Shown here piece after piece: positions 3,503 to 49,452 of a DNA stretch of 64,000 bases (its first letter is position 1; every line of letters starts with the position of its first letter). Below the pieces are notes generated by a model that worked only from the letters and a program-made list of their open reading frames with translations, did not search any database and was not told the origin of the DNA. The position numbers and the translations under genes were made by a program. Source of the stretch: Sinomicrobium soli (GTDB lineage Bacteria > Bacteroidota > Bacteroidia > Flavobacteriales > Flavobacteriaceae); contig NZ_QLNV01000005.1 of assembly GCF_003285545.1 (NCBI RefSeq), positions 124,001 to 188,000 of the forward strand, in the 5' to 3' direction.

Positions 3503-3577
3503 GGCCCGGGAAGAGCAACGATACGCAGGAAGAATTTGCACCTCCTGGTACGGAAATTGTTAAAAACACATAAAAAA

Positions 3578-4012: not shown

Positions 4013-4151
4013 AAGCATGCCGGGCCTGTAGGTCCGGATTTATAAACAGGAACGAACGAAAATGATAATAATACCGGGAAGGTTGCATTGCGAAGGCATA
4101 TGAAAAGCTTTCGTGAATTTCTGCTTTTCCGGCTTGAAAACACAACACACA

Positions 4152-5162: not shown

Positions 5163-5232
5163 AGTACGGTCCGGAGATAAATTTGTGACGTGGGTCATGC
5201 AGGGTTTGAAGAGAATCCATAACTTTGATGAA

Positions 5233-6180
5233 ATGAGACGGAAGGTTTTCACGATATGGATTGCAACAGTCGCCTTTTTTCCTGCATGGGGGCAGGAACC
5301 TGCCCTGGCCATGGAAAGTGCTGATGTGACTACCGAGGAGTACACCGACGATTTCCAGGAGCATTTTTTTGAGGCCTTGAAACAAAAGGGGATAGAAAAT
5401 TACCAGCGGGCGGCTGAAGAACTGCTTCGCTGTAAAAAGCTGGATGCCGGTAACGAAGTGGTGGATTATGAATTGGGCCGGGTCTATATAAAACTCCGGC
5501 AATACGATCGTGCTGAAGCCCATTTGTTACATGCCGTAGAAAAAAAAGCCGAATTGTGGTACCTCGATGCCCTTTTCGGTCTTTATGAATTACAGGGAGA
5601 AATAGATAAGGCTGTTGCCGTGGGGGAGCGGCTTGCCCGTTCCGATAGCCAGTATAAGGAGAACCTGGTCCGGATCTTTATGGATGCCGGGCGCTATGAA
5701 GATGCCCTGCTTCTCATAAAAGAACTCAATGCCGAACTGGGCAGGTCGGAACTCAGGGAACGGCAGCAACTGTGGATGGAAACACGTATGAACCCGGGAA
5801 CTGTGATAAAAACCGGGGAGGAGACCGTGAAAGATACCGCTGCGGAAGGCGGGGTTTCTGAAAGTAAGGACAACCTGGAGGAGACGTACCGCAGGATCGG
5901 CGAATATAAAAAGATTTTTAATTTTGGGGAAGTGCTGGCCCTGGCCGAAAGGGCCCTGGAAGATTTTCCTGCCCAGCCTGCCCTCTATTATCACAAGGCC
6001 ACGGCGCTCAACAGGCTTAAGAAGCACGGGGAGGCCCTGGAGGTCCTGCAGGCTGCCCTGGACTACCTGATTGACGACCGCCAGCTGGAAAATGATATAT
6101 ACCGGGAATTTGTCATAGCCTATAATTCGCTGGGCAATGACCGGAAAGCAGAAGAATATGCCGGGAAAATCAGAAACTGA
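5233..6180 (+). CDS. Exported tetratricopeptide repeat protein
   Basis: 315 residues from the ATG at 5233, giving a signal peptide (RRKVFTIWIATVAFF, cleavage near WGQ). A frame start at 5185 would bury it. The mature part is a chain of TPR-like helix pairs: YELGRVYIKLRQYDRAEAHL, the LYYHKATALNRLKKHGEAL block and a last unit near the C-terminus, with an acidic low-complexity linker around residues 200-220. Such proteins are scaffolds in the periplasm. It is 70 bases after the nucleotidyltransferase and 60 before the DUF4292 lipoprotein gene, probably in one transcript. Confidence 0.85.
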   Translation: MRRKVFTIWIATVAFFPAWGQEPALAMESADVTTEEYTDDFQEHFFEALKQKGIENYQRAAEELLRCKKLDAGNEVVDYELGRVYIKLRQYDRAEAHLLHAVEKKAELWYLDALFGLYELQGEIDKAVAVGERLARSDSQYKENLVRIFMDAGRYEDALLLIKELNAELGRSELRERQQLWMETRMNPGTVIKTGEETVKDTAAEGGVSESKDNLEETYRRIGEYKKIFNFGEVLALAERALEDFPAQPALYYHKATALNRLKKHGEALEVLQAALDYLIDDRQLENDIYREFVIAYNSLGNDRKAEEYAGKIRN

Positions 6181-33928: not shown

Positions 33929-34492
33929 TCAAAATCGAATTTGGAGCACAAAAAGCAGAAACTCGTCATCTTCAAACCCTTCCCGAATTTTCAGGAGGGC
34001 TATCCGTATCTGGGTTTCTACCGTCCTGACAGAGATATCCATTCGCTGGGCTATTTCCTTTTGCTTTAGCCCTTCCAGTTTATTCATTTGCAGTATACGC
34101 CTGCATTTCGGGGGCAGGTGTTCCACCAGCTCTTTCAGCCGCTGCATCCGTTGTTCTATAAGGTCTTCATCATCCTTGATCCGCTCCTGTAGGGCACGTT
34201 GCTTTAACTCGTCAAAAAAAGTGTCCCGGCGTTTTAGCTGCCGCTGTTCATCGATATAAATATTGTGGGCTATCATATATAAATACCCCTTGGGCGACCG
34301 CTCCGTATCCAGTTTATGGCGCTGTGTCCACAAGGTCAGGAAAGCCTGTTGCGCAATGTCTTCAGACTGTTCCTGGTGGTGCGTAAAACTGGTCACATAA
34401 GCCAGCAACCGCTGGTAGTAACGTTTAAAAAACTGCTGAAATGCAGGCTCATCGCCCCGGTGTATGGCTTTGGCCAGTGCTATATCATCCAT
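33929..34492 (-). CDS. ECF sigma factor, FecI-like (first SusCD locus)
   Basis: 187 residues. Region 2 at about 10-75 (FQQFFKRYYQRLLAYVTSF, then QAFLTLWTQRHKL) and region 4 at about 120-175 (LPPKCRRILQMNKLEGLKQKE, MDISVRTVETQIRIAL). It should direct RNA polymerase to the fecR-susC operon once released. Faces fecR across a 204-base divergent gap. The unusual tail (DDEFLLFVLQIRF) is as in other Bacteroidota paralogues. Confidence 0.93.
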   Translation of the reverse strand: MDDIALAKAIHRGDEPAFQQFFKRYYQRLLAYVTSFTHHQEQSEDIAQQAFLTLWTQRHKLDTERSPKGYLYMIAHNIYIDEQRQLKRRDTFFDELKQRALQERIKDDEDLIEQRMQRLKELVEHLPPKCRRILQMNKLEGLKQKEIAQRMDISVRTVETQIRIALLKIREGFEDDEFLLFVLQIRF

Positions 34493-34587
34493 AAGTTTCA
34501 GAGTATACCCGTGTAATTCCCTCGTAAAGATTAAAAAAAAATTAAATTGTCGTTACGGGATTTTTGTTTTTTTACCGTATAGGGGGT

Positions 34588-34626
34588 AGATTAAGTTAAT
34601 AAGTTATTGAGTTACTGAGTTATTTG
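34588..34626. repeat. GAGTTA-type phrase repeat in the sigma-fecR gap
   Basis: Tandem variants of AAGTTA, GAGTTA (TTAATAAGTTATTGAGTTAC). Similar text occurs at 45037, 48260 and 56010. It precedes a second leader phrase rich in AACCTGTAACC that runs to the fecR ATG. Confidence 0.45.
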
Positions 34627-34696
34627 GGCAACCTGCCCTTCGGCTCCACTCAGGGAACTGTAACCTGTAACCAAAAACCTGCAACTCAACAAGCCC

Positions 34697-35842
34697 ATGA
34701 AAAACCTGATCGCAAAATTTATAACCAACACCATTGTCGACGAGGAGCTGAAAACACTCCGGGAGTGGTTGGCGGACCCAAAGCATCAAAAAACCTTTGA
34801 AGCCTACGTCCGCGACTATCATGACCTTAACCTGGCCATGACCCCTGTAGACCTTCAAAAGGCCTACGGCAAACTGCGAAATATGATGGACCAGGAAAAA
34901 CATAAAGCCAGGCCGGTTAAAAAACTCTGGGCACCGTTGGTAAAATATGCCGCTGCCGCTCTGGTATTGCTGAGCCTTGGTTATTTGTATGAACAGGGAC
35001 ATTTTAGCTCACAGCAGGAGGATATTCTGATCCCTGGGAACGAAGCCGTGACACTACAGTTGGATAACGGTGATATCGAGGTCATAGACCCTGAAAGCTC
35101 CGGGAATGTAACCGATACTCATGGCCGTATTATTGGAAAGCAGGATAAAAACAAGATCACTTACGACAAAGCAGCTAACAGCACGGAGGCCTACAATACC
35201 CTGAAAGTACCGTACGGCAAACGTTTTGATGTGGTGTTGTCCGACGGTACCACGGTATATTTAAATGCGGGAACCTCTCTAAAATACCCGGTTCAGTTCC
35301 CTGAAAAGGGCAACCGGCAGGTCTATATCACCGGGGAAGCCTTTTTTGACGTGGCCAAAGACCCCCAACATCCCTTTGTCGTCAATGCAGACGCCTTACA
35401 TGTACAGGTATTAGGCACCCGGTTTAACGTGGCGGCCTACCCGGAAGACCCGGCTATCGATGTAGTACTGGTAGAAGGCTCCGTAAGCATGTACTCCCGG
35501 GAATACAGTACTGAATCACAAAAAAAGATCCTGTTAAAACCCGGGTATATAGGGGTGTATAAGCCTGCTGAAAATAGCCTTACCACCAAGGAAGTGGTTA
35601 CCGGGGTGTATACGTCCTGGCTGGATGGCGAGCTTGTATTCCGGAACATGCCGCTTAAAAATATCCTGAAAAGACTGGAAAGACATTATAATATTACCAT
35701 TACAAATCACAATGCTGCACTCGCTGACAAAGAGTTCAACGCCAGCTTTGGCAGCGAACCTGTTGAAAAAGTACTGGAGTATTTTAAGATATCCTACGGC
35801 ATAGATTTTAAGATAGAAGACAACAAGGTGATTATCAAATAA
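34697..35842 (+). CDS. FecR family anti-sigma factor
   Basis: 381 residues. Cytoplasmic N-terminal region (1-78), one membrane helix at about 80-98, then the periplasmic FecR domain (LKVPYGKRFDVVLSDGTTVYL, FFDVAKD, VLGTRFNV) and a C-terminal DUF4974 / STN-like domain (MPLKNILKRLERHYN). It holds the sigma factor at 33929 until the TonB-linked SusC signals. SusC's own N-terminal STN domain is the expected partner. It is 130 bases before susC. Confidence 0.94.
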   Translation: MKNLIAKFITNTIVDEELKTLREWLADPKHQKTFEAYVRDYHDLNLAMTPVDLQKAYGKLRNMMDQEKHKARPVKKLWAPLVKYAAAALVLLSLGYLYEQGHFSSQQEDILIPGNEAVTLQLDNGDIEVIDPESSGNVTDTHGRIIGKQDKNKITYDKAANSTEAYNTLKVPYGKRFDVVLSDGTTVYLNAGTSLKYPVQFPEKGNRQVYITGEAFFDVAKDPQHPFVVNADALHVQVLGTRFNVAAYPEDPAIDVVLVEGSVSMYSREYSTESQKKILLKPGYIGVYKPAENSLTTKEVVTGVYTSWLDGELVFRNMPLKNILKRLERHYNITITNHNAALADKEFNASFGSEPVEKVLEYFKISYGIDFKIEDNKVIIK

Positions 35843-35896
35843 AAAACAACCGAGCCTATGAAACACAGCTAACCAGAACACACGTCTCAAAAAAAA

Positions 35897-35922
35897 CCGG
35901 GAAATGGTGGAGCATTTCCCGG
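35897..35922. promoter_or_regulatory. Perfect hairpin in the fecR-susC gap
   Basis: CCGGGAAATG and CATTTCCCGG pair over 10 bp around a GTGGAG loop. No T run follows on either side that would make a full terminator. It may shield the susC 5' end, or attenuate. A weaker hairpin lies at the same place in the second locus (61082). Confidence 0.55.
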
Positions 35923-35972
35923 CGGATAAGATGTGATTAATCAAAGCTAACCACAAACGAATAATTAAAAGT

Positions 35973-38900
35973 ATGAAAAAACTTCTTAATAGTACAAGAA
36001 GCCCTTATCTGTATTTAAAATTTGATCTGAAGATGAAAATCAGTGCCATATTCATGCTGGCAGCGCTGTTTACCCTGCAGGCCAATACCTCGTATTCACA
36101 GAAAAAGATTTCTCTGGATCTGAGTAATGTGTCTGTAGAACGTCTTCTGGATGAAATTGAAAATCGCACCGACTTTAAATTTGTGTATAAGACCGAAGAT
36201 GTAGACCTGGCACGTACGGTATCCATCAATGTAAGAAAAGAAAAGATCACTGCGGTGCTGGATCGGGTGTTTAGTTACACTACCACCGCATATAAGATTA
36301 TAGGATCGCAGATATTATTAACCTCTTCCTTAGGTGTCAAGACACCTGCAATCGGAACAAGCTTACGGGAAGGAACCCAGCAACTCCGGGTAAGCGGAAC
36401 AATTACCGATCCCAATGGTATGCCCTTGCCCGGAGTTAATATTATCGTCAAAGACGCCAAAAGAGGAACCATGTCGGACCCCGACGGAAAATACGACATC
36501 CGGGTAAACCCTTCGGATGTGCTGGTGTTTTCGTATGTCGGGTTTAAGAAGCAGGAACAGGCGGTAAACGGACAGGAAGTTCTCGATGTGGTGATGGAGG
36601 AAGATGTGAGTGCCCTGGATGAGGTAGTGGTGAATGCGGGGTATTATAAAACTTCTGAAAGGAATAGAACCGGGAGTATTGCTAGGGTAACTGCTGAAGA
36701 AATACAAGATCAACCGGTAACCAGCCCATTAATGGCTTTACAAGGCCGGGTTCCCGGATTGGAGATTTCCCCCTCAAGTGGTACTCCTGGAATAGCTCCC
36801 AAGATTAGAATACGTGGAGAAAATAGTCTGAGAGTGCAAAAAGTAGGGGTTGCTTCTATACCTGGATTGGTAGGAGGGGAGGAAGGTGGCCTCCCTTTAT
36901 ATGTTATAGATGGTGTGCCTGTAGCATCTGGTAGGATTCTCTCGGTAGGAGGTGATAATTTCGGAGGTTATAATTTTGCTGGTGGCTATGATCCTTTGGC
37001 AGCACTTAATCCTGAAAACATTTCCAGTATAGAAGTTCTTAAAGACGCTGATGCAACAGCAATTTACGGGTCGAGAGGTGCTAATGGTGTAATATTGATT
37101 ACTACAAAGCAAGGACGGGGTATGATAAGAGAATCTACGGATATCCAATTGAGTTTTTATAGAGGGATAGGCAAATATTCGGGAAGAGCAGACTTATTAA
37201 ATACTGAAGAGTATTTGATGATGCGTCATGAAGGGTTGGTCAATGATGGGATTGATTTAGAAAGTGCCAGCCCGCTTATAAAAGGATTGCTTTATCCGGA
37301 CTTGACCTTTTGGGATCAGAATAGCTATACGGATTGGCAAAAGGTATTAATGGGAGGTACAGCGAATATTACCGATATCCAGGGAAATCTTTCCGGTGGG
37401 AATGGCACAACTTCCTACCGAGTAGGAGGAGCTTATCATCGGGAAAGTCTTATTACACCGGGAGATTCTTATTTCAGTAGAGCCACAGGGCATATGAGTG
37501 TTAATCACATATCTAAAAATAATCGTTTTCGCGCTAATGTTTCTGTAAATTATGGTATTACCAAGCATGATGTAGCCGGGGGAAGTATGGTTTCTCAGGC
37601 CATGACACTACCACCTAATGCCCCGGAACTATACGATGAAAATGGAGAATTGAACTGGGAAATACATCCGGATTTGGATCGGGAGACCTGGACCAATCCT
37701 CTGGCGAGCACAAAGGTTAATACCACCTCTGATAATCGGAATCTAGTAGCCAATGCAAATATTAGTTATCAATTATTAAAAGGCTTAGACGCTAAAGTGA
37801 ATCTGGGGTATACGGAACTAAATGGAAGAGAGATTAGAAGAACCCCACTATCCTCAATGGCTCCAAGATTGCGTTATAATTCACAAACAGGTAGTGGTAA
37901 TCGCCCTAGTGCTCAATTTAACGATAATCATAGGCAAAGTGTCGTTATAGAGCCACAGTTAAATTACCAAAGACGATGGGGAAACCATAGTTTGGAAGCG
38001 CTGGTAGGGGGTACTTATCAGCAAAGCAAGGATGCAAGGAAATGGTTACAAGGTTTAGAATATACAAATGATGCGTTTTTGGGGTCATTAATAGGGGCTG
38101 GAGTGATTTATGTACTGGTAGATCAAGAAGATGAATATCGTTATGCTGGCGGATATGGGAGAATAGGTTATAGATACAAGAATCGTTATATTCTTAATGT
38201 CTCTGGTCGTAGGGATGGTTCTTCCCGCTTTGGACCTGGCAAACGTTTCGGAAATTTTGGCGCTGTTGGTGCGGCCTGGATATTCTCAGATGAACCCTGG
38301 TTAAAAGAACATTTTTCTTTGTTAAGTTTTGGTAAACTTCGAGGAAGTTATGGTAGTACAGGAAACGATCAGGTAGGGAATTACAGGTATTTGGATTTAT
38401 ATCAGCTAAATTCCATATCCTACCAAGACCAGCGGGGACTTCTACCTTATGCATTGTTTAACCCGGATTATAGCTGGGAAAGGACTAAGAAACTCGAAGG
38501 AGCATTAGAGTTGGGGGTATTGGACAACCGTTTATCACTTCATGTAGCATGGTACCGTAACAGATCTTCAAATCAGCTTATCTCCAGGGTTTTGCCCTAT
38601 ACAACCGGGTTTGACTCGGTTATAGATAATTTTTCGGAAGCGGTCATCGAGAATTTGGGTTGGGAATTCTTAATTCGCGGAGAACCTATTCGTTCTAAAA
38701 ATTTCCAGTGGGATATTTCTTTTAACCTATCAGTCAATCGTAACAAACTGGTATCATTTCCCGGAATAGAAGATTCTCCTTACAATACAGTATTTAAGGT
38801 TGGAGAGTCATTATCCATACAGCGGTTATATACATGGCTAGGTGTAGATGCGGAAACCGGGGAACATCAATTTTTAGATGTCAATGAAGATGGGATCATT

Positions 38901-39398
38901 AATGATGATGATAGACAATTTAACAATGCTTTAGACCGTGATTTTTATGGAGGTATAAACCAAAACCTCAGATACAAAGGGTTTCAATTGTCTTTTCTTT
39001 TTCAGTTTTCAAGGCAAAATGCTCGCTATCTGAGTAATCAGATGCCTGGAAGAATGTTCAATCAACCTGAATTGGTCTTACAACGATGGCAGCAACCTGG
39101 AGATGTCACCGATATTCAACGTTTTTCTGCTAGTAGTTTAGGTTCAGATTACACATTTTTATTTCGTCAAAGTAATGCGGATATAGCCGATGCTTCTTTT
39201 ATACGGTTAAAGACTTTGAACCTGTCCTATAGATTTTCAGATCATGCACTAAAGTATATAGGTGTAAAGCAGCTTCGGTTGTTTATACAAGGGCAAAACC
39301 TGTTTACTATTACAGGATATGAAGGTCCCGATCCGGAGACTGGTTATGGTGCACCTCCTATTCGGATGCTGACCAGTGGAATACAAGTAACATTTTAA
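35973..39398 (+). CDS. SusC/RagA TonB-linked outer membrane protein, STN type (locus 1)
   Basis: 1141 residues. Signal after a short charged lead (FMLAALFTLQANTSYSQ), an STN signalling domain at about 45-95 (FKFVYKTEDVDL), a carboxypeptidase-like beta domain at about 130-205 (GTITDPNGMPLPGVNI), the TonB box region LDEVVVNAGYY, a plug (NGVILITTKQGRG) and a beta barrel to the end. It pairs with the SusD at 39409 to import a large ligand and, through STN, to signal to FecR. The base composition turns AT-rich soon after TonB-box codons, at about 36,650. Confidence 0.95.
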   Translation: MKKLLNSTRSPYLYLKFDLKMKISAIFMLAALFTLQANTSYSQKKISLDLSNVSVERLLDEIENRTDFKFVYKTEDVDLARTVSINVRKEKITAVLDRVFSYTTTAYKIIGSQILLTSSLGVKTPAIGTSLREGTQQLRVSGTITDPNGMPLPGVNIIVKDAKRGTMSDPDGKYDIRVNPSDVLVFSYVGFKKQEQAVNGQEVLDVVMEEDVSALDEVVVNAGYYKTSERNRTGSIARVTAEEIQDQPVTSPLMALQGRVPGLEISPSSGTPGIAPKIRIRGENSLRVQKVGVASIPGLVGGEEGGLPLYVIDGVPVASGRILSVGGDNFGGYNFAGGYDPLAALNPENISSIEVLKDADATAIYGSRGANGVILITTKQGRGMIRESTDIQLSFYRGIGKYSGRADLLNTEEYLMMRHEGLVNDGIDLESASPLIKGLLYPDLTFWDQNSYTDWQKVLMGGTANITDIQGNLSGGNGTTSYRVGGAYHRESLITPGDSYFSRATGHMSVNHISKNNRFRANVSVNYGITKHDVAGGSMVSQAMTLPPNAPELYDENGELNWEIHPDLDRETWTNPLASTKVNTTSDNRNLVANANISYQLLKGLDAKVNLGYTELNGREIRRTPLSSMAPRLRYNSQTGSGNRPSAQFNDNHRQSVVIEPQLNYQRRWGNHSLEALVGGTYQQSKDARKWLQGLEYTNDAFLGSLIGAGVIYVLVDQEDEYRYAGGYGRIGYRYKNRYILNVSGRRDGSSRFGPGKRFGNFGAVGAAWIFSDEPWLKEHFSLLSFGKLRGSYGSTGNDQVGNYRYLDLYQLNSISYQDQRGLLPYALFNPDYSWERTKKLEGALELGVLDNRLSLHVAWYRNRSSNQLISRVLPYTTGFDSVIDNFSEAVIENLGWEFLIRGEPIRSKNFQWDISFNLSVNRNKLVSFPGIEDSPYNTVFKVGESLSIQRLYTWLGVDAETGEHQFLDVNEDGIINDDDRQFNNALDRDFYGGINQNLRYKGFQLSFLFQFSRQNARYLSNQMPGRMFNQPELVLQRWQQPGDVTDIQRFSASSLGSDYTFLFRQSNADIADASFIRLKTLNLSYRFSDHALKYIGVKQLRLFIQGQNLFTITGYEGPDPETGYGAPPIRMLTSGIQVTF

Positions 39399-39408
39399 GG
39401 AAGTAGCG

Positions 39409-40824
39409 ATGAAGAAATTTAAATTAAATATAGCTATAGTGTTTTTCAGAAGAAGAAGTTTTGTGCCATTTTGTACTATAATATTCTTAATATCCGGTTG
39501 TGAATCTTTGGTAGAGGTAGATATGCCTTCGGTTTCTTTAATGGAAAAAGGGACTGTATTTTCAGATGCTTCTAATGCCGAATTGGCTGTCATTGGATTG
39601 TACAGTCAAATGCGTAATAGTTCACACCCGTTTTATGGAGACAGCGATGGTTTGTCGGATTTAGCCGGGCTCTATGCCGATGAATTATTTTATACCGGGA
39701 TGGATATTGCAAGACTACAATTTCAAGAGAGCTCTTTACAGGCAGATAACAATATGGTATTAAACGTATGGAGTCAATTCTATGAAACCATTTCCTCCGC
39801 TAATATGCTTATTGAAAACCTGGAAAATGCTGAAAATATTCCGTTGGATACACGAAATCAATTGATTGGTGAGGCCCTTTTTATCCGTGCATTGAACTTT
39901 TTTAATCTGGTTAATCTTTTCGGAGAAGTCCCCTTGGTTTTAACGAGCGATTATCGGGTAAACGCCAATATCCCACGTACATCTCTTGAAGAGGTTTATG
40001 AGCAAATTGAGGAAGATTTGTTGCAGGCAAGTGAAATGATGACTTGGGGTTATCCAAATGAAGAACGTGTCAGGGCTACAGATATGACTGCTAAGGCTCT
40101 GCTTTCCAGGGTGTATTTATACCAGGAAAAATGGGAAGAAGCAGAAATTATATCTTCGGAAGTTATCAATAACACCGATTATGGTTTGGTAGCTTTGGAA
40201 AGTATTACCTTATCTAATAATAGGGAAGCTATTTTGCAATTTTCACCATCAGGACAGTCTATAACTTCTGTAACACCGGAGGGTTTGAATTATGGAGGGA
40301 ATAGTTCTGTAAATGTTTTACAAGAAGATTTTGCCGAAATTTTTGAGCCAGGAGATGAACGCAAGAGCAATTGGATGAGACAAAATAATTCGCTATTACA
40401 AGTCCCCTACAAATATAAAGTTGGTGTTTCAGGTGGCACCTCCCGACTTGAATATACAACAATTTTTCGTTTGGCAGAACAATATCTCATACGTGCGGAG
40501 TCCAGAGCAGAGCAGGAAAAACTGGCTGAAGCTGTCTTAGATATAGACGTTGTACGTGGCAGGGCCGGTTTAACTCTTATATCAGAAACGAATCCGGGAA
40601 TACCCCGGGAGGATTTACTGGATGCTATTATGCAGGAACGAAGGGTGGAATTTTTTTCCGAATGGGGACACAGATGGTTTGATTTAAAGCGTACCGGAAA
40701 TGCTCTTCAGGTTCTTCAAGTAATAAAACCGGACTTTAATTCAAATAAGCTGTTATGGCCAATTCCACAACAGGAGATAAATAACAACCCCGCCCTCCGA
40801 GATCATCAAAATACAGGATATTAA
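39409..40824 (+). CDS. RagB/SusD family lipoprotein
   Basis: 471 residues. Lipoprotein signal with lipobox ISGC (Cys27 or so), then SusD repeats of helix pairs (LYSQMRNSSHPF, GEALFIRALNFFNLVNLFGEVPLV, TAKALLSRVYLYQEKWEEA) and the C-terminal RRVEFFSEWGHRWFDLKRTG typical of the family. It is the lid of the SusC barrel and catches the ligand. Ten bases after susC. AT-rich like the rest of the block. The ligand is unknown; no glycosidase is near. Confidence 0.95.
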   Translation: MKKFKLNIAIVFFRRRSFVPFCTIIFLISGCESLVEVDMPSVSLMEKGTVFSDASNAELAVIGLYSQMRNSSHPFYGDSDGLSDLAGLYADELFYTGMDIARLQFQESSLQADNNMVLNVWSQFYETISSANMLIENLENAENIPLDTRNQLIGEALFIRALNFFNLVNLFGEVPLVLTSDYRVNANIPRTSLEEVYEQIEEDLLQASEMMTWGYPNEERVRATDMTAKALLSRVYLYQEKWEEAEIISSEVINNTDYGLVALESITLSNNREAILQFSPSGQSITSVTPEGLNYGGNSSVNVLQEDFAEIFEPGDERKSNWMRQNNSLLQVPYKYKVGVSGGTSRLEYTTIFRLAEQYLIRAESRAEQEKLAEAVLDIDVVRGRAGLTLISETNPGIPREDLLDAIMQERRVEFFSEWGHRWFDLKRTGNALQVLQVIKPDFNSNKLLWPIPQQEINNNPALRDHQNTGY

Positions 40825-40843
40825 TAATTTCAAGTAATTATTT

Positions 40844-43741
40844 ATGAAATTAATTTCGATATACTGTACATTTTTGGTTTTTTTTCTGGTTCTTCAGTCC
40901 TGTTTTAGTCAACAAGATACGTTACCAATGGATCCTGATTTGCGTTATGGTAAACTGAATAATGGATTTGCCTATTACATCCGAAAAACAAAAGATGTGT
41001 TTCCGGAAGATGGAGTGTATATTCGTTTAGTGGGTAGAGCAGGCGCATGGTTAGAAACTAAAGATCAGCAGCATTTAGCACATCTAATGGAACATATGAA
41101 TGTGTTGGCTCCTTCTAGCTTGGGTAGTTTTAAGTATTGGTATATGAACTCTATAAAGCATAAGGTAATTACATCTGCTCATAGAATTAGTACTGGTGAT
41201 GATTTTGTACAGTATGGCATTGGTTTAAGAGAGGTTGAAAAAGGATTGTTGGAAGATGTTTTTCGAAGATACCGGGCCTTGAGTTTTAACGAAAAAATGC
41301 TTTTTAATTTAAAAGACTCGGATTTGGTAGATGAATTAGGGCGACGGACAATTTTGGAAGAAATTGAACCGGGGAGTAACTATGGAACAATCTTATCGGG
41401 AGAGAAATATCACACTTTAGGGGAACCTGAACAAAAATTCTATGACCCGAATAATATATTGAAAAGTGTATCAAATATTCGAACATTTAAATTGAAGTCT
41501 TTAGAAAAATTCTATACAGATTGGTATCGTCCGGATATGCAGGCTTTAATTGTAATTGGTGATATCCCTGATGTAGATTGGGTAGAAGATCGGATCAAAT
41601 TTTATTTTTCGGATTTAAAACTTCCAAAGAGCAGCGTACAAAGATCACTTTCCAATTGGTATGATTCTTTAGAAGTTTCTTTGCCGGGAACAAACCGGAT
41701 AGTGTTGACCAAAGATTCAATTAAGAATAATAATCTATTAGCTTTTAACATCATTCGCTCTATCCTTTCACCAACGGAACGAATGGTGACCTATGAACAG
41801 TATCGAGAAGCATTGATTGCAGACCTTTATTTATCGGTCTTGGGGGTACGCCTAAATGCATTGACCCGACAATATCGTTCTTCTATTCCCTCTACGGTTC
41901 AAGTTCGAATAAAAAATGAACTTCGAGTGGCGTTTCACCGAATAAGTGTTCCATTATTTAAAGATACTGATATTCGAGAGATCACAAATACTTTGGTAAG
42001 GGAAATGGAACGGATAAAACGTTTTGGATTTTCTAATGATGAATTGCTTATAGCCAAAGATGTTGTTCAAAAAGAACGTTTAAAACAAATGGTCTATGAT
42101 GGATTAGGTCTTTTGGTAGATAGTTATAAGGATCATTTTATGAAAGGAGTACCTGCTATGTCGTTAGATGACCAAACTGAGTTTGTTGCCAAATTGTTGA
42201 CAGATATTGAAGTACCCGACATTAATGCTTATGCCCGATCCTGGTGGGATGAGCCCAATAAGGTGTTATCTGTTACTACATCTGATAAAGCTTCATTAAA
42301 AAATATTCCAACCGATCTTGAATTTAATGAACTATTAGAAAGCATCCATAATGAAGATTTAGGTCCCTGGGACATGCCTGTCTCAGTCCCGGAAAAGCTA
42401 CTACAAAACAGTAAAATTCCAGAGCAGCTAACCGCTGCAACGGCAGAGGAACAAATACCAAATGAAGGGAATGCATATCGTTTGAAATTCTCCAACGGGA
42501 TATCCGTAATATTAAAACCGCTTCCCAATTCCAAAAACGGGGTGGCCCTGAAGGGATATAGTGCTCATGGAGCTAGTTCTTTTAATAATCCTTCAGATTA
42601 TGCCAGAGCTACCGAAGCTGCAAATATTATTCAATACAGTGGTGCAGGAGATTGGGACAAATTTCAAATAAATGCTTATCTGAAAGAATATAAAATCGGT
42701 TTTTCTATGCGGATAATGAATGAGTCAAGTACGATAAATGCCTCTTCTTCTCCTGATCAGATCGAAGCTATGTTGCAATTAGTATACTTGTACCTAACTA
42801 AACCACGCAAGGATGCTTTAGCATTTATGGATTGGAAAACCAAACATGTTAAAAGACCTACTGTGGAAACAAAAAAAATGAAATATAAAAAAATTACGGA
42901 TTATCCATTATGGGATTTGTTAGGGGTAGAGTCCCCGGGTAAGAGTTTTCATCTTTCCCCAATATCCATAGATTGGAAAAAAGATGATTTAGATGCAATT
43001 CATTCGGTCTATCAACAATTGTTTTCCTCAGACGCCATGACATTTGTTATAACAGGTGATTTTGATGTAGACAAAATCAGACCTCTTCTGTCTGTATACT
43101 TTGGAAACCTTCCTATGTCGTCCTGCTTCATAAAAGAACAACCTATTACTGAAGTGATCAAAAGACCAATTCAAGGATTGGACAAGACTTTTTTCACCAG
43201 TAGGGACAATTATGGGATAAGCTACAATTATGTTGGTAATCTCAAAACAAAAAAAGATGGCCTGCTATTGGAGTTACTTGAGAGATTACTTGATAAAAAT
43301 ATATACTCAACTTCTCAAAAATCTGAATTCTACATAGGCCTGTTTATGAATTTGAGTTATAATTCAGATAGTTATCGTTTTTTCGTGGGCGATAATTACT
43401 CAAATAATCGCACCATGCTGGTAGATAGTATTGTACGCTCTTGTGTGAATGATGTTAAGGAAAACTTGTTAGAAGAAGACCAGTTAAATGTATTAAAGCA
43501 AGTATATAAGCAAGAACTAACTGCGCTTAAAAATGAAAATAACCCATCGGCATGGGCTGAATACTTGTTGGAGCAGGAACAGGATAGTTTTGGAAAGTAC
43601 AGCAGGGCTTGGGAGTATTCAGGAATGTTGGACGCTGTTACTTCGCAAGACATCCGGGATGCGGCAAGAACATATCTGTCTGATGACAATATCAGTATTA
43701 TCAAGGTTTTTCCAAAAGAAGAACAAATTCAATCGAAATAA
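40844..43741 (+). CDS. M16 family zinc protease lipoprotein
   Basis: 965 residues. Lipoprotein signal LQSC (Cys20). Two M16 halves, as in PqqL-type proteases. The first has an intact zinc motif at 80-84 (HLMEH), and a downstream acidic cluster EEIEPG is a plausible third ligand. The second half begins near 550 (NEGNAYRLKFSNGISVILKPL) and lacks a HxxEH, as usual. The enzyme should cut peptides, here anchored to the outer or inner membrane next to an importer of unknown substrate. 19 bases after susD. Strongly AT-rich. Confidence 0.93.
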   Translation: MKLISIYCTFLVFFLVLQSCFSQQDTLPMDPDLRYGKLNNGFAYYIRKTKDVFPEDGVYIRLVGRAGAWLETKDQQHLAHLMEHMNVLAPSSLGSFKYWYMNSIKHKVITSAHRISTGDDFVQYGIGLREVEKGLLEDVFRRYRALSFNEKMLFNLKDSDLVDELGRRTILEEIEPGSNYGTILSGEKYHTLGEPEQKFYDPNNILKSVSNIRTFKLKSLEKFYTDWYRPDMQALIVIGDIPDVDWVEDRIKFYFSDLKLPKSSVQRSLSNWYDSLEVSLPGTNRIVLTKDSIKNNNLLAFNIIRSILSPTERMVTYEQYREALIADLYLSVLGVRLNALTRQYRSSIPSTVQVRIKNELRVAFHRISVPLFKDTDIREITNTLVREMERIKRFGFSNDELLIAKDVVQKERLKQMVYDGLGLLVDSYKDHFMKGVPAMSLDDQTEFVAKLLTDIEVPDINAYARSWWDEPNKVLSVTTSDKASLKNIPTDLEFNELLESIHNEDLGPWDMPVSVPEKLLQNSKIPEQLTAATAEEQIPNEGNAYRLKFSNGISVILKPLPNSKNGVALKGYSAHGASSFNNPSDYARATEAANIIQYSGAGDWDKFQINAYLKEYKIGFSMRIMNESSTINASSSPDQIEAMLQLVYLYLTKPRKDALAFMDWKTKHVKRPTVETKKMKYKKITDYPLWDLLGVESPGKSFHLSPISIDWKKDDLDAIHSVYQQLFSSDAMTFVITGDFDVDKIRPLLSVYFGNLPMSSCFIKEQPITEVIKRPIQGLDKTFFTSRDNYGISYNYVGNLKTKKDGLLLELLERLLDKNIYSTSQKSEFYIGLFMNLSYNSDSYRFFVGDNYSNNRTMLVDSIVRSCVNDVKENLLEEDQLNVLKQVYKQELTALKNENNPSAWAEYLLEQEQDSFGKYSRAWEYSGMLDAVTSQDIRDAARTYLSDDNISIIKVFPKEEQIQSK

Positions 43742-43758
43742 AATAGAAAATAAATAGT

Positions 43759-44922
43759 ATGAAAAATTTTAGTAAGAAATTTAGTGTTTTTATCATCATG
43801 TTATCAATATGTGCTATGGGAATGGCACAAAAGAAAGTACCAGTAAGAGTAGAAAGTAGTAATAAGCTCTTTAATCCTGGACTAGATATGACGAACGAAT
43901 ACGTGAAAAAGCATATGGAAAATCCGGATTGGAATTGGGTGCGTCAGGAATTTACCAGAAAATACCCTGAAATGAATGTAGATAGTTTAACCCATTTTAC
44001 CCAGGCGGAGTATTATTTAATGACAGGTGATGAAAAAAACAGACTAAAGGAATTAGCCTATTTGGCAAATACCTATGGGCAGACGTGGAAACCTGAACAG
44101 TTGACACATTTTGCGGGTATTGTAATCAGGGAAGATATCGGTTTGGAGCCTGATGCTGTAAAATGGACAAAAATGGCATTGGAGAAGGAACCTGACACCC
44201 TAATGGGAAAACATTTAGCTGTGACGTATGCTTATATTTTGGCTAAAAAAGGAAATAAGAAGGAGGCTTTGCGCCTAATAGGAAATGCCCTTCATATCTA
44301 CCCTCCCGATCAACCATATTTAAAGATAGATAGAACGATGGGATATGGTTTACAAAAAAAACGTGCTATGTGTAATTTGTTTGAGGTGGTGGCAAATAGG
44401 GCAGTTTGGTTAAATGAAAAACAAAAACGTAATCGTTATAAAGGAAAAGTAAACTTTGAAAAAGATAAGTTTTATTGGAATAATGTAAGAGATGAATACC
44501 TGGTAAAAGAGTTTGCACCTAAAGCGGCAGACAGTGTTATGCTTTTGGGGGCCATGTATTATTACGAAAGTATATTAAATGATACTATAGGATGGGTGGC
44601 TCCTTTTGTAGAATATTCAGAAAAATATAATAATAGAACGATAATTGATGAAAATAATAATGCTTGGGAAGTACTTACAAAAAGTAAAAAAAGAGAAGAG
44701 TTAGAAAAAGCATTAAAATGGAGTGAGACTACTCTACACGAAAAACAATACCAAAAATATACCTATCATACTTATGCCGGACTACTATATAAAATGGGCT
44801 ATAATGAAAAGGCTATAACATATCAGGAAAAAGCACTTGTTTTGGTTGCTAATAATATTAAGAAAACGCAAGAATATCAAGACATGTTAGATAAAATGCG
44901 AAAAGGGAAACCTATTGATTAG
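43759..44922 (+). CDS. Secreted TPR-like protein, last of the SusCD operon
   Basis: 387 residues. Signal peptide (FIIMLSICAMGMAQ), then helical repeats of TPR type (AVTYAYILAKKGNKKEALRL, KYTYHTYAGLLYKMGYNEKAI). No thioredoxin motif and no cysteine pair. Family not recognised. 17 bases after the M16 gene, so co-expressed; it could deliver or bind peptides. Ends 33 bases before the left end of the IS element. Confidence 0.8.
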   Translation: MKNFSKKFSVFIIMLSICAMGMAQKKVPVRVESSNKLFNPGLDMTNEYVKKHMENPDWNWVRQEFTRKYPEMNVDSLTHFTQAEYYLMTGDEKNRLKELAYLANTYGQTWKPEQLTHFAGIVIREDIGLEPDAVKWTKMALEKEPDTLMGKHLAVTYAYILAKKGNKKEALRLIGNALHIYPPDQPYLKIDRTMGYGLQKKRAMCNLFEVVANRAVWLNEKQKRNRYKGKVNFEKDKFYWNNVRDEYLVKEFAPKAADSVMLLGAMYYYESILNDTIGWVAPFVEYSEKYNNRTIIDENNNAWEVLTKSKKREELEKALKWSETTLHEKQYQKYTYHTYAGLLYKMGYNEKAITYQEKALVLVANNIKKTQEYQDMLDKMRKGKPID

Positions 44923-45036
44923 TCATTATAATAATTGTCGGAGTAGAAAAATTTAGAGGAGGCCGTCTAAAAAGTTTTAGGCGGTCTTTTTATATTTAGG
45001 CTATTTTCTTGCTTTCAACCTACAAGGTGCAAGAGT

Positions 45037-45065
45037 TGCGTGTTAAAAAGTTAATGAGTTAATAG
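45037..45065. repeat. GAGTTA-type phrase inside the IS, past the transposase stop
   Basis: AAAGTTAATGAGTTAATAG matches the phrase type seen at 34588, 48260 and 56010. It lies between the transposase stop and the IS end. Confidence 0.35.
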
Positions 45066-45076
45066 AAGTTGTGGGA

Positions 45077-46618
45077 TTACGCCCTTAACCCAACCTTTTT
45101 AAGATTGTGTGCCATAGCCACAAGCCCTATTTCGGTTTCCACTTTATCCAGTCCTCTGAGCATAAAGCGCTTGAAGCCCATATTCTGCTTTATATTCCCA
45201 AAGACAGCCTCCACCTCCCAGCACCTCCTTTTTCGGTGGGCAATGCCCTGTTCTGAGAGCAACAGTGCTTTGGCCTTGGCCTTTAACCGTATTAGCTCAT
45301 GTTTTCTCTGGATGGTCCGGTTGCCTTTGGTTTTATGACATAAGCCCCTTAGAGGGCAACCCCTACAGTTTTTGGCCCGGTAGAGGTCGTAGATTTGCAG
45401 GTAGCCATTGGCCGTCTTTTTTTTACGCTGGCCAACATGCTCCATGGCTTGTCCCATAGGACAGTAATAGGTATCGGTTTCTTTGTTGTAATAGAGCTTG
45501 TCAGGGTGGAACGGAGCTTTGTCCACTTTTTCTTTGGCCTGCCTTTGTTCCTTATGGAAGTAGTTGTACTTGACATAGGCATCAATATCCTTATCCTCCA
45601 GAGCCTGGTAGTTTTCCTGGCTTCCATAGCCGGCATCGGCCGTTAAGCTTTCCGGGGTTTGGTCATAGCTTTGTTCAACATCTTCTATATGGTCTATCAA
45701 GGTGGAGGTGTCGGCCGTGGTCTGGGCCAGGGTGTAGTTCACGATAAACTGGTTGTTGGTCGAGGCCTGTAGGTTGTAACCGGGCTTGAGCTGCCCGTTT
45801 TTCATGTGGTCTTCCTTCATCCGCATAAACGTGGCCCCGGGGTCGGTCTTACTCATGCTCCCACGATGCCCTAACTTCTTTTGTTGATCGTTGTATTTGG
45901 CGATCTTATCAGGCCAGTTCTTCTTGGCATAGCTCAGTTTTTGCTTGACCTTTTTGTCTACCGCTTTGCCTTCCAAAGCCTGGTTGATCTGATCAACGGT
46001 AGCCGATACCTTCTTAGGATCGATAGCCTCGAACTCCGGAGTGTTGGGCAGCTGTTCCTCATCAGCATAGACTTTTTCCACATAGCTCCACAGTTCCCTG
46101 AGCTGTTTTTCAATACGCTCGCGGGAGGTCTTGATGCTCTTGGCCCATACAAAGGTGTAACGGTTGGCATTGGCCTCGATCTTGGTCCCGTCCACATAGA
46201 GCTCCTTCAGACTTAAATAGCCCTGTTCAGCCAAAAGTACCACTACTTGGTTGAAGATCTTCTTGAACTTGTCCTTTAGCTTGCCACTGCGGAAGTTACT
46301 GATGGTATTGTGGTCAGGTTTGGCTCCGCCACTGAGCCATATAAAATGGATGTTTTCATGTAGGGCCTGCTCTATTTTACGCGAAGAATACAGGTTGCGC
46401 AAATAGGCATACACTAAAATTTTTAGCAATACTTTGGGATGATAGCTCGATGTACCGCCTCCACGATAGGTCTTTTCCAGGTTGCTCAAGTCTACCGAGT
46501 CCAAAATCGTGTTGACAATACGTACAGGATGGTTCTGAGGAACTAGGTCATCATAACTGGGCGGAAGCAGGCTCAACTGCCCTTGGTCGTAGATCTTCCA
46601 GGTGACTTTTCGGCTCAT
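45077..46618 (-). CDS. IS1182-type DDE transposase
   Basis: 513 residues from the ATG at 46618 (MSRKVTWKIYDQGQLSLLPP); a longer frame to 46675 runs into the terminal repeat. N-terminal DUF772-like helices (YHPKVLLKILVYAYLRNL), a first catalytic Asp in LYVDGTKIEANANRYTF, second Asp in LTADAGYGSQENY, and a Glu late in WEVEAVFGNIKQNMGF. A cysteine-rich finger (CRGCPLRGLCH) near 425. Looks full-length and possibly active. Confidence 0.94.
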   Translation of the reverse strand: MSRKVTWKIYDQGQLSLLPPSYDDLVPQNHPVRIVNTILDSVDLSNLEKTYRGGGTSSYHPKVLLKILVYAYLRNLYSSRKIEQALHENIHFIWLSGGAKPDHNTISNFRSGKLKDKFKKIFNQVVVLLAEQGYLSLKELYVDGTKIEANANRYTFVWAKSIKTSRERIEKQLRELWSYVEKVYADEEQLPNTPEFEAIDPKKVSATVDQINQALEGKAVDKKVKQKLSYAKKNWPDKIAKYNDQQKKLGHRGSMSKTDPGATFMRMKEDHMKNGQLKPGYNLQASTNNQFIVNYTLAQTTADTSTLIDHIEDVEQSYDQTPESLTADAGYGSQENYQALEDKDIDAYVKYNYFHKEQRQAKEKVDKAPFHPDKLYYNKETDTYYCPMGQAMEHVGQRKKKTANGYLQIYDLYRAKNCRGCPLRGLCHKTKGNRTIQRKHELIRLKAKAKALLLSEQGIAHRKRRCWEVEAVFGNIKQNMGFKRFMLRGLDKVETEIGLVAMAHNLKKVGLRA

Positions 46619-46710
46619 GCTTAAATTTACAAACACAGACATATAACAAAAAAAAGAGGCTGCCTTTTTAGACAACCTCCTCTTTTGTTATTAGACCAAA
46701 ATTACAGAAT

Positions 46711-47040
46711 TTATTCGACCTCTAACAACTCAAAAATTGTTATAGATGGATTTACCGGAGAAGCGGGTATTGGCTCTCCATTGTGAAATAGTGGTGTAAT
46801 ACATCCGGCTTCTAGGTAAGTTACACTGGAAGTTTGCTCCCCTTGCAATTCCGTATCAACAATAACTTTACACGGATTTTGAGTCTGATCGTTACAAGTG
46901 GCATCCAATGCCACACAGTCACTTGGGCCGTCATTTGAAGCCTTAACATAAACCGGAGTAGTGAAGTAGGTAGAAGCAACGGCACTACCTACAGCAAAAA
47001 CCAATACTAGGCTTCCCATAATTACTTTTTGAATTTTCAT
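46711..47040 (-). CDS. DUF6520 family small exported protein
   Basis: 109 residues. Signal peptide (VIMGSLVLVFAVGSAVAS) and a mature part of about 85 residues with four cysteines in the order DC, TC, PC, GC and the typical late GCITPLFHNGEPI. I recall this family as common in Bacteroidota next to MauE/DoxX genes, as here, but no function is established. The cysteines may be paired with help from the MauE-like protein two genes upstream. It is the last gene of the minus-strand set and ends 28 bases from the IS. Confidence 0.82.
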   Translation of the reverse strand: MKIQKVIMGSLVLVFAVGSAVASTYFTTPVYVKASNDGPSDCVALDATCNDQTQNPCKVIVDTELQGEQTSSVTYLEAGCITPLFHNGEPIPASPVNPSITIFELLEVE

Positions 47041-47151
47041 AATGAATAAGTTTTAAGATTAAACATGGTGCTTACTTTGGATTATCCAGGTGTTCAGCTT
47101 AGTCCTGGTCTTTTACCGGTAAAAAATTGTGTATATCATTGTATTTTTTAT

Positions 47152-48252
47152 TCAGTTGTTTAATGTATAATTTTGAAAAAGAGAACTATTTAGAATATCA
47201 TAAGAGATAAGATATTGGTCTTGAATGGTTATTAGCTTGTTGTTAATGATTTTAAAATCGGAGATTCCTTTGTTTTTGTAAGGAGGTAGATAAAAACTGA
47301 GCAAATATTCTCCTTTGGTTAAATCGTAAACATCAACAACACTATTTTTTGTAAATTGATCCTCATCCTCATTTTGAGCAAGTACCCCCGAATTGATATA
47401 AAGATATTTACCAGATACAGAACTCATCCTTTGGGTTAGGGCAGGTTGGGAGGTAAGCTCAAAAGAATTTTCAGAGTTAACCTTTTTTACCTGTACATTG
47501 GCTTGGCTAATGGTATCTAACGTATTGTATCTTTTCAGAAGATTCAGTTTTTTATCCATTAACATATATTCGTTACGATACTTATACAAATAAATTATTT
47601 TATCTAGATCTTTGCTGTAATGGAGCATGCCGTCTACACTAAAAAAGCCTTCCGCTTGTTTTTGCAATAGATTATGGTTATATCTGAAATATGGACTCTC
47701 TGCTGTTTCTACCCCTAGTTCATAAGAGTCTTGGGTTTTACTGTAATATCGTACAGCAAATGCATTAGAATCTATAGGAACTGCAGAAGTAAAATATATG
47801 CTGTCAGGCATAAAGCGATGAGCTTCCCACTGGTCTACTTTACCTCGTAATAAAGCAGGGGCAATACCATGTGCCATATAAAAGTAGGGAGGCTCTATTT
47901 TGGTTCGAAATTGTTGCGAACGTACAACACTGTCCAATCCTTTAATTTTTAATTGTATATGTTGGGTGTCTTTGAGGGAAATATTCATCCTTAGCAAATG
48001 ACGTATGGCAGTATAGTTACTAAGATAAACTTCATCCTCTGTGAGTCCGGAGATATAATAAGAATTTACCCCCAAATCCAATATAGCTTTTTGGATAATG
48101 GTGTTCTCAGGGGTAAAATCCCTGGAGAAACTACCTCTGTATATTTCACGGTTATTTAAGGGAGAGATAGCATATAGGCCTACTAATACTAATAACATAC
48201 CTAAAGTACACAGGCTTAAAAGGATCATAGATTTTTTATCAGTTTTTTTCAT
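47152..48252 (-). CDS. Membrane-anchored propeller-like protein, unknown function
   Basis: 366 residues. One N-terminal helix (ILLSLCTLGMLLVLVGLYAI), then a periplasmic domain of repeated four-strand patterns (FFSVDGMLHYSKDLDKIIYLY, KYLYINSG, VVDVYDLTKGEYLLSFYLP) that looks like a beta propeller. No catalytic residues are seen. AT-rich. It lies between the DUF6520 gene and the MauE-like gene; the three are probably one transcript. Confidence 0.78.
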   Translation of the reverse strand: MKKTDKKSMILLSLCTLGMLLVLVGLYAISPLNNREIYRGSFSRDFTPENTIIQKAILDLGVNSYYISGLTEDEVYLSNYTAIRHLLRMNISLKDTQHIQLKIKGLDSVVRSQQFRTKIEPPYFYMAHGIAPALLRGKVDQWEAHRFMPDSIYFTSAVPIDSNAFAVRYYSKTQDSYELGVETAESPYFRYNHNLLQKQAEGFFSVDGMLHYSKDLDKIIYLYKYRNEYMLMDKKLNLLKRYNTLDTISQANVQVKKVNSENSFELTSQPALTQRMSSVSGKYLYINSGVLAQNEDEDQFTKNSVVDVYDLTKGEYLLSFYLPPYKNKGISDFKIINNKLITIQDQYLISYDILNSSLFQNYTLNN

Positions 48253-48259
48253 AATTAGG

Positions 48260-48300
48260 GGTATTCGGTTATTGGGTTAACGAGTTACTGGGTTATTAGG
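48260..48300. repeat. GAGTTA-type phrase upstream of the 47152 gene
   Basis: GGTTATTGGGTTAACGAG and TTACTGGGTTATTAGG repeat a GGTTA/GAGTTA theme. On the minus strand it ends just before the ATG at 48252. Same phrase type as 34588, 45037 and 56010. Confidence 0.5.
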
Positions 48301-48322
48301 GAGACCTTCGTATATAAATTAC

Positions 48323-48799
48323 TTATGCCAAAGCATAGGAATGTGCATGAGATTGCTCCCTGTTGTACAGGAATATCCCAAACACAGCCAGCAGGGTAAA
48401 ACCTATATTAAAGAAAAAGTGTTCGGTCCAGCCCATGCTGCTGAGGATGCCCCCGCAGGAACAAGGTACATACGGACTGAAATTCTGTATGATAAAGATG
48501 TAACCTGTGAAGGCTAACATCAATGAAAACGAAGCATAGAGTCCTGTAAGGCGCAAACGTGGTACAAAAAGGAATATGGCTACGATAATTTCCAGGATAG
48601 GAACACCCCAGGCCAATAATCCGGCAAACTGTGTAATCAACGGAGATTTGGACATCTGTACCTGGAATTTCTGTACATCCATCAGTTTGCTGAATGCGGC
48701 ATACAGGAACAGGAATATAAACAGGTAACAAATGGTTTCCAGGATGATATTTCTTTTCCTGAGCACAAAACGAGGTAGGGTTAAAACAGCATTTTTCAT
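48323..48799 (-). CDS. MauE/DoxX family redox-associated membrane protein
   Basis: 158 residues with four membrane helices and the motif YVPCSCGGIL between helices 3 and 4, plus the following SMGWTEHFFFN that marks Bacteroidota MauE relatives. MauE is needed for disulfide-rich protein maturation in methylamine dehydrogenase operons; here the Cys-Ser-Cys could serve oxidation of the DUF6520 protein. The start at 48799 has no strong alternative. Close (70 bases) to the propeller-like gene. Confidence 0.88.
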   Translation of the reverse strand: MKNAVLTLPRFVLRKRNIILETICYLFIFLFLYAAFSKLMDVQKFQVQMSKSPLITQFAGLLAWGVPILEIIVAIFLFVPRLRLTGLYASFSLMLAFTGYIFIIQNFSPYVPCSCGGILSSMGWTEHFFFNIGFTLLAVFGIFLYNREQSHAHSYALA

Positions 48800-48945
48800 C
48801 TTTTGGGGCGAATTAAAAGGTTGTTTTTATCGTTTCGGGGTCAGGGGTCATGGTTGCCGGCAAAACGCTAAACCTATCCGGGCTTTCGCACAACTCCTAA
48901 CGCCAAAACTGCTATAGTAAATGGTTGGTTAGTTTCTTTTCTTAC

Positions 48946-49008
48946 GAAGCATACGGGGTAAAATGGTGTACGGGATTTTACCCCTGTGCTTCGGCGGGGA
49001 ATTCCCCG
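48946..49008. repeat. Long hairpin and adjoining GGGGAATTCCCC palindrome
   Basis: GAAGCA (48946) pairs with TGCTTC (48992) and GGGGTAAAAT with ATTTTACCCC around a 10-base loop. The 14-base palindrome CGGGGAATTCCCCG follows at 48995-49008. No T run, no gene of note. It lies upstream of the MauE-like gene and downstream of the AraC remnant. Confidence 0.55.
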
Positions 49009-49206
49009 GATGTCAAAATTCTTTTCATTTTCATCATTTCTTTTCTCCTTTTTGACTATGGTAAAGTTCTGCATATTAGGAGGTTTCCAAGGTGGCCTAA
49101 ACGAAGTATTTAGGTCGCTGATCGGAAAAAACTATCGCTTAAACAGTAGCTAATCGGAAATTTCTCATATTACATGCCTGGTATTTTCCGGTAGCAACCT
49201 GCATAA

Positions 49207-49452
49207 CTACTGCTGTTCGCGATACTCCTTGGGAGTACAGCCAAAATGTTTACGAAAAGCCCGGTAAAAACCCGATTTCGATTCAAATCCGAGCTGCTCG
49301 GCGATAGCTATATTGGTGAGATCGGTATTTTGGAGGAGCTCCCGCGCTTTTTCCATCCGGAGTTCGTTGACGTATTCGTTGATGGTTTTGTCGAAGTACG
49401 CTTTGAAATCGGTTTTTAGGCGCTGCTGATTTACGCCCAGCAAACGGGCCAT
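49207..49452 (-). pseudogene. Remnant of an AraC-family regulator (HTH domain only)
   Basis: 81 residues from the only ATG, containing both helix-turn-helix units of AraC (ARELLQNTDLTNIAIAEQ, ESKSGFYRAFRKHFGCTP). The frame extends back to a stop at 49498 and the text before the ATG (NLPTIQQ) still matches the first helix of the domain, so the ATG is not the original start. The sensor domain is missing from all frames upstream. It is probably decayed, though a stand-alone HTH product is possible. Upstream of the MauE-like gene on the same strand. Confidence 0.65.

Follow-up and report, generated by a model that had tools for sequence, protein, structure and literature searches.

The question raised by positions 33929-49452 of a 64,000-nucleotide stretch of the Sinomicrobium soli genome (contig NZ_QLNV01000005.1, positions 124,001 to 188,000; hereafter the window) is whether two gene sets that face each other there are chance neighbors or partners. 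One set encodes a SusC-SusD outer-membrane importer (SusCD) followed by an M16 metallopeptidase; the other, converging on it, encodes a MauE/DoxX-type redox membrane protein, a membrane-anchored beta-propeller and a small cysteine-containing protein of the DUF6520 family. The original prediction, made from the letters of this DNA, held that the two sets belong together, and a survey of other genomes bears this out. On balance, we favor the view that the two halves form one envelope system, in which MauE, with the propeller where there is one, would oxidize DUF6520 while the SusCD importer and its enzyme would handle a matched substrate.

A facing layout that recurs in Bacteroidota

All of the features named in the original prediction exist, including the gene content of both sets and their spacing from susC onward. 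On the plus strand, susC (35973-39398) encodes a TonB-dependent outer-membrane transporter (TIGR04056, 743 bits) with an STN-like N-terminus, the STN match itself lying just below the Pfam cut-off (27.0 bits against 28.4). It is followed by susD (39409-40824; PF14322, PF07980), for a substrate-binding lid lipoprotein, and by the M16 gene (40844-43741; PF05193, 60.1 bits), which occupies a variable enzyme slot and whose HxxEH active-site motif is intact, reading HLMEH. With TIGR04056, PF14322 and PF07980 all above cut-off and a susC-susD gap of 10 bases, the pair is a member of the SusCD systems; the following gaps are 19 and 17 bases. Facing these genes on the minus strand are those for DUF6520, the presumed matured product (46711-47040; PF20130, 30.3 bits against a cut-off of 25.4, E 5e-7), which has cysteines at residues 42, 49, 57 and 80 and, judged by eye, a Sec-type signal; for the propeller (47152-48252); and for MauE, with its PCSCGG motif (48323-48799; PF07291, 115.6 bits against a cut-off of 27, E 2e-33). 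An insertion sequence (IS) lies between the two sets and interrupts no module gene; with it removed, their stop codons would stand 59 bases apart, as against the roughly 60 anticipated.

In a profile search with PF20130 (E 0.001), a sample of 299 genomes from the family gave 42 with a match, and one of 345 from the phylum gave 28. Regions of up to 20 kb were taken for 81 of 82 rows in the family sample and 27 of 33 new rows in the phylum sample, leaving out a 682-aa frame in G029 and six phylum rows (two from G629, and those from G591, G474, G412 and G473). The resulting DUF6520-ascertained collection (set A), counted without open reading frame (ORF) filtering, holds 108 ORFs at 103 loci. A convergent SusD gene lies within 8.5 kb of 96 of the 108, and in no case was SusD found solely in another orientation. 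For 95 ORFs, a MauE gene lies no more than 3.5 kb away on that strand, and 92 have both partners, rather than the DUF6520-MauE pairs independent of SusCD-M16 sets throughout that had been named beforehand as the contrary outcome. A second collection (set B) comprises 28 loci found by MauE alone in named genomes, which include Flavobacteriaceae, Cytophagales (Chryseosolibacter, Agaribacillus), Pedobacter and Chryseobacterium; six coincide with set A places. SusD converges at 20 of the 28 and a recognizable DUF6520 is present at 24, two loci (L155, L165) having convergent SusD but no DUF6520 call. Six of the eight loci without SusD run into a contig end within 4.5 kb, and among loci with enough downstream DNA the proportion is 20 of 22; without the six shared places it is 15 of 22, or 15 of 17 with room. 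SusD appeared in 1 of 10 arbitrary 20-kb regions, a small control placed by hand. Chance does not explain the facing layout, and the coupling of DUF6520 to SusCD is well supported.

The layout was also seen in one other family of the order (L109) and in two of the class (L110-L115), and Sinomicrobium pectinilyticum (L141) and a Muricauda sp. (L145) each carry a pair of complete modules arranged back to back. At L111-L115, which belong to two further families of the class, the gene that meets DUF6520-MauE head-on is SusD itself, with a thioredoxin-like gene on the far side of susC; this points to SusC-SusD facing DUF6520-MauE as the constant core. The S. soli genome (4.6 Mb, with 80 SusD matches) holds seven PF20130 matches above cut-off, and all seven loci converge on SusC-SusD. 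Five of them, including the window, carry M16 in the slot (the others being L009, L010, L011 and L012), one a PD40-amidohydrolase (L013) and one a thioredoxin-like protein (L014). Neither propeller nor MauE was found at L014, and L010 starts at a contig end, where its MauE is not placeable. Across this genome, MauE is matched in six frames of 161-176 aa, in one of 370 aa and once weakly, and 19 M16 domain matches, grouped by position, amount to ten proteins.

An exchangeable enzyme opposite a constant half

The prediction had singled out a SusCD-M16 operon as the partner of the cysteine-protein half. This holds for SusCD in general, with M16 turning out to be one of several interchangeable enzymes. 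Some slot proteins were given to Pfam directly and the remainder were assigned by profiles built from those, which yielded M16, Met-zincin (DUF4953/DUF5117), prolyl oligopeptidase S9, subtilase S8, PD40-amidohydrolase and AhpC-TSA/redoxin families. For 89 DUF6520 ORFs with SusD and MauE, the nearest enzyme before SusD is S9 in 32, M16 in 19, redoxin-like in 17, Met-zincin in 11, an amidohydrolase in 2 and S8 in 2, with none called in 6. Motifs are kept in all 20 M16 (HxxEH) and all 10 Met-zincin proteins (HExxH), in 28 of 32 S9 proteins (GxSxGG) and in 13 of 17 redoxins (CxxC). A quick tree of MauE from 86 loci implies 25 or more changes of enzyme type (with "none" counted as a state), the layout being kept throughout. 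The description of the window enzyme as an M16 lipoprotein stands for the peptidase; the lipoprotein part goes back to a lipobox-like LQSC picked out by eye, and a crude lipobox pattern fits 1 of 20 linked M16 proteins. Nor does the locus look like one for polysaccharide utilization: in the window operon and among the slot proteins classified by Pfam we see peptidases, redoxins or amidohydrolases, the other neighbors being only partly classified. The designation of MauE and the small cysteine protein as the constant half is supported.

MauE, the propeller and the cysteines of DUF6520

In MauE, the two cysteines of PCSCGG (C113, C115), W124 and H127 are invariant in 88 of 88 sequences. Every MauE protein of more than 300 aa in the first set, 16 in all, is fused to a propeller (profile E 1e-91 to 3e-136), and a link between fused MauE and S9 enzymes found no support from independent pairs. 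The window propeller, modeled with an N-terminal helix at a predicted local distance difference test (pLDDT) score of 92.5, most resembles chain 3s9j, a DUF4221 protein (Z 18.4, root-mean-square deviation 3.9, 293 residues). This resemblance is one of fold only: the protein matches no Pfam family, DUF4221 included, at E 0.5, and DUF4221 is not among the 25 of 36 families listed for 59 propeller members. Methylamine dehydrogenase also has a propeller subunit, whereas the best structural match of the module propeller is DUF4221; no methylamine dehydrogenase subunit is among the structure matches listed, which excludes nothing.

DUF6520 is highly variable, with a mean column identity of 15% over 98 sequences, and its mature part is the most variable component of the module (mean p-distance 0.80 vs 0.55-0.60). 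Its second and third cysteines (C2, C3) are present in 104 of 105 sequences, and the outer two (C1, C4) occur jointly, so that C1 may well pair with C4. In the complete loci of set A (92 ORFs), the C1-C4 pair is found in 60 of 62 proteins with a propeller nearby and in none of 30 without one; in set B minus overlaps, the counts are 14 of 17 (two others lacking C1 only) and 0 of 2. C1 and C4 thus follow the propeller in complete loci, which suggests that the propeller takes part in forming a second disulfide or in putting it to use. A fold search from the weak DUF6520 model returned nothing at E 0.001, and a comparison of the DUF6520 profile with the PDB nothing under E 0.4.

One way to read the redox features is that electrons pass from MauE via DUF6520 to thioredoxin-like proteins or to SusCD cargo, forming an envelope redox relay. 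The CxC of MauE would suit such a relay, as would the thioredoxin-like enzymes nearest to DUF6520 at some complete loci, but most of the 89 ORFs have a peptidase in the slot, and variability of the kind seen in DUF6520 is not what we would expect of a relay protein. We consider this reading improbable.

A proposed envelope system and its alternatives

As a small protein that has an export signal, contains one or two cysteine pairs and is encoded next to MauE, DUF6520 is a natural candidate for a MauE substrate. In the system that we propose, MauE would act from the inner membrane through its CxC motif, alone or together with the anchored propeller, to form the C2-C3 disulfide, or also the C1-C4 disulfide, in DUF6520, itself a putative small Sec-exported protein. 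The convergent half would supply a dedicated SusCD pair and an exported enzyme, which would be either a peptidase (M16, Met-zincin, S9, S8) or a disulfide reductase (thioredoxin-like). A transporter and enzyme so paired would suit a cell that takes up a small protein or peptide held by disulfides and takes it apart. The most economical link between the halves would be that the SusCD half handles DUF6520-type peptides of its own cell or its kin, constituting a private peptide cycle, and the SusCD cargo may thus be a DUF6520-type protein. As with the chain of events drawn in the original prediction, in which a sensed peptide would be taken up and cleaved and a disulfide protein matured at the same locus, we infer that MauE forms disulfides, which cysteines pair, that DUF6520 leaves the cell and what the cargo is. 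More tentatively still, and against our own expectation, Bacteroidota may run many parallel private circuits of this type, each with its own disulfide-locked DUF6520, fitted with its disulfides by MauE and the propeller, that is recaptured and opened by its own SusCD gate and protease or reductase, serving as a ribosomally made metal carrier, signal or kin mark.

The layout gives DUF6520, a propeller family absent from Pfam and a Bacteroidota branch of MauE a shared genomic role, and a subfamily of SusCD appears tied to a self-encoded small cysteine protein rather than to glycans. We know of no substrate for most SusCD pairs; here, a candidate ligand gene lies beside the transporter at each locus, which makes substrate assignment directly testable.

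A number of observations weigh against a single system. Twelve of the 108 set A ORFs have no convergent SusD. Two (L034, L088) lie where a contig ends, six belong to a single genome (G275), and the others are L089, L094, L096 and L116, most of them weak matches. In set B, L150 and L154 have no convergent SusD despite room for it, an ECF-FecR-SusC set at L150 pointing away. Four other SusCD-M16 sets in the S. soli genome (L128-L131) have no DUF6520, which means that the coupling runs from DUF6520 to SusCD and not the reverse. Six DUF6520 copies outside complete loci have four cysteines with no propeller nearby (the second copy at L059, and L074, L079, L084, L090 and L094), and the propeller-cysteine rule reflects few independent changes, with 2 pairs when supported branches alone are counted and 6 when the best tree is used. 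The structure model of DUF6520 is poor (pLDDT 68.4). No outer-membrane exporter was recognized in the module maps, so that DUF6520 may remain periplasmic. Descent also has to be reckoned with. In a SusD tree of 114 rows, 89 of them linked to DUF6520, the linked proteins, that of the window among those placed, fall mainly into one clade plus a second (L111-L115), with 3 label changes; the linkage is therefore old and largely inherited, rather than 92 independent events, and one unlinked SusD (L170) is nested inside the main linked clade. SusD and MauE distances are correlated (Mantel 0.58; 0.43 within genomes, 47 pairs), but co-divergence beyond genome membership is marginal (within-genome shuffle p 0.054). 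As an aside on the four S. soli sets lacking DUF6520, redoxins accompany three of them.

Taken to its limit, descent would be the whole explanation: two unrelated operons would have stayed adjacent since a single side-by-side origin, as the concentration of linked SusD proteins in mostly one clade might suggest. The linkage has been kept, however, at a mean SusD p-distance of 0.60 and in several copies per genome (seven loci in S. soli); the second SusD clade is also linked, and the many enzyme changes took place within the linkage. We regard synteny by descent alone as very improbable.

The strongest alternative makes DUF6520 a periplasmic accessory of the SusCD-enzyme complex, such as a chaperone, inhibitor or adaptor, which MauE oxidizes for stability while SusCD imports environmental peptides. 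A Sec-type signal without a recognizable exporter is what this would lead one to find, and DUF6520 faces the enzyme and SusD end of the opposite operon. Yet DUF6520 is kept across M16, S9, Met-zincin and thioredoxin-like slot proteins, and at L111-L115 it faces SusD itself, which makes a role as enzyme inhibitor unlikely; its standing as the most variable component also sits poorly with an accessory. We think an accessory role unlikely overall, though far from negligible, and continue to favor the one-system view in which DUF6520 is matured by one half and a matched substrate is handled by the other.

Relation to known systems

No report of DUF6520 or of this gene set was found in the PMC text searched, the gene-set searches having been judged from titles and abstracts. 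The importer and peptidase are of known kinds; the facing cysteine-protein half and the strict orientation are without description in the literature searched. In the protease-associated import of ferredoxin (Fus, YddB/PqqL), a TonB-dependent transporter is encoded with an M16 peptidase and the cargo is cut in the periplasm (PMC6793856). The window locus is Fus-like in that a TonB-dependent transporter gene lies near an M16 gene with an intact motif, but the Fus results concern Proteobacteria, and the main text mentions neither Bacteroidetes nor SusD (PMC6793856); the present module, for its part, has a SusCD pair, interchangeable enzymes and the facing DUF6520-MauE set. RagAB-type importers share the SusC/SusD architecture and are implicated in protein or peptide uptake, whereas the abstract mentions no dedicated small disulfide protein or MauE half (PMC11817032).

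On the side of the cysteine protein, the chryseobasin-type MNIO clusters of Bacteroidota also have a small cysteine peptide with an export signal and often SusCD, once with a prolyl oligopeptidase, but in those clusters the peptide undergoes cytoplasmic modification by an MNIO enzyme (PMC12636315), whereas DUF6520 pairs with MauE. Pfam identified no MNIO enzyme in the proteins submitted to it, with no search aimed at that family. Disulfide formation in methylamine dehydrogenase has, as a speculation, been ascribed to MauE, and MauE homologues occur next to cysteine-rich candidates for ribosomally synthesized and post-translationally modified peptides (PMC7794033); both settings, methylamine dehydrogenase maturation (MauE, MauD) and the peptide candidates, resemble the present module in combining a MauE homologue with a small cysteine-rich protein (PMC7794033). 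Amine dehydrogenase subunits were not seen among the proteins given to Pfam, no dedicated search having been made. A precedent for TonB-dependent secretion is described for Oar/PopC (PMC6434023).

Variation in copy number and a possible toxin role

A module of a genus-mate (L188, 13701-17854, in G003) has four DUF6520 genes, three of them beyond MauE; because G003 is not among the listed matching genomes, the Pfam profile or the family sample under-counts. On a Pedobacter contig (L160, 3062-5822), three MauE-like genes lie ahead of one DUF6520 gene. In G275, which has eleven DUF6520 matches, several four-cysteine orphans (L074, L079, L084, L090) have no MauE or SusCD found nearby. At L154 in Chitinophaga rupis (1701-5414), a DUF6520-propeller-MauE set was seen with no SusCD found nearby, and some 4 kb upstream are ORFs that resemble, from a motif seen by eye, a C39-type peptidase ATP-binding cassette transporter and a partner. 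NVEALA (PF14055), tried as a Bacteroidales counterpart, was dropped after matches in 2 of 148 genomes, none above cut-off.

Small, variable, cysteine-paired proteins that undergo modular exchange and occur in tandem copies, as at L188, also recall bacteriocins, and the C39-type-transporter-like ORF near one copy (L154) would fit the comparison. DUF6520 would then be a toxin, and the SusCD-hydrolase set would either destroy it, as immunity, or feed on killed neighbors. Neither an exporter nor an immunity membrane protein was recognized as a constant part of the module, however, and we doubt this explanation strongly.

Regulators, insertion sequence and other features of the locus

Ahead of susC in the window, a gene for an extracytoplasmic function (ECF) sigma factor of the Bacteroidetes family (33929-34492, minus strand; TIGR02985, 141 bits against a cut-off of 126.4) diverges from fecR (34697-35842, plus strand; PF04773, PF16344), which encodes an anti-sigma factor. 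Both are optional parts, the ECF/FecR pair being missing at many loci. At the opposite end, and additional to the features first described, is a 5'-truncated gene for an AraC-type regulator (49207-49452, minus strand; PF12833), the frame upstream of which is broken by stops. It is probably the remnant of a regulator usually found upstream of MauE in relatives, and the window copy seems to have lost this regulator. Upstream of MauE in L064 (11780-16664) and about 30 other loci are a DUF7793 block and an AraC protein with HAMP/PAS, together with an RteC-like gene and a divergent gene for an aminotransferase I/II-FemAB-like fusion (about 800 aa). Elsewhere, the place is taken by a TPR histidine kinase and a response regulator. 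These differing upstream blocks look like alternative control of the module.

The IS in the convergent gap (44955-46683, with inverted ends at 44955-44974 and 46664-46683), which we take to be IS1182-like, is not part of the system; it holds a transposase-like ORF (45077-46675, minus strand), judged by reading. An Rfam search returned nothing at gathering thresholds. The genes at the junction are AT-rich relative to their flanks, as predicted, with guanine-plus-cytosine (GC) fractions of 0.363 (M16), 0.341 (the TPR-like gene described below), 0.409 (DUF6520) and 0.341 (propeller) against 0.494 and 0.486, and low GC at the junction was seen in the nine Sinomicrobium loci listed. We rejected it as a sign of cassette exchange, since of 52 genomes only 7 have a DUF6520 gene poorer in GC than MauE, although 50 have an enzyme gene poorer in GC than susC. 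Low GC is a trait of the Sinomicrobium copies and no hallmark of the system.

The last gene of the importer set (43759-44922, plus strand) encodes a TPR-like exported protein with weak TPR matches, a genus-level accessory. Relatives were found in 3 other genomes of 60, one of them weak, and the clear ones are confined to two genus-mates. At L068 and L188, the related genes again adjoin M16 and subtilase genes.

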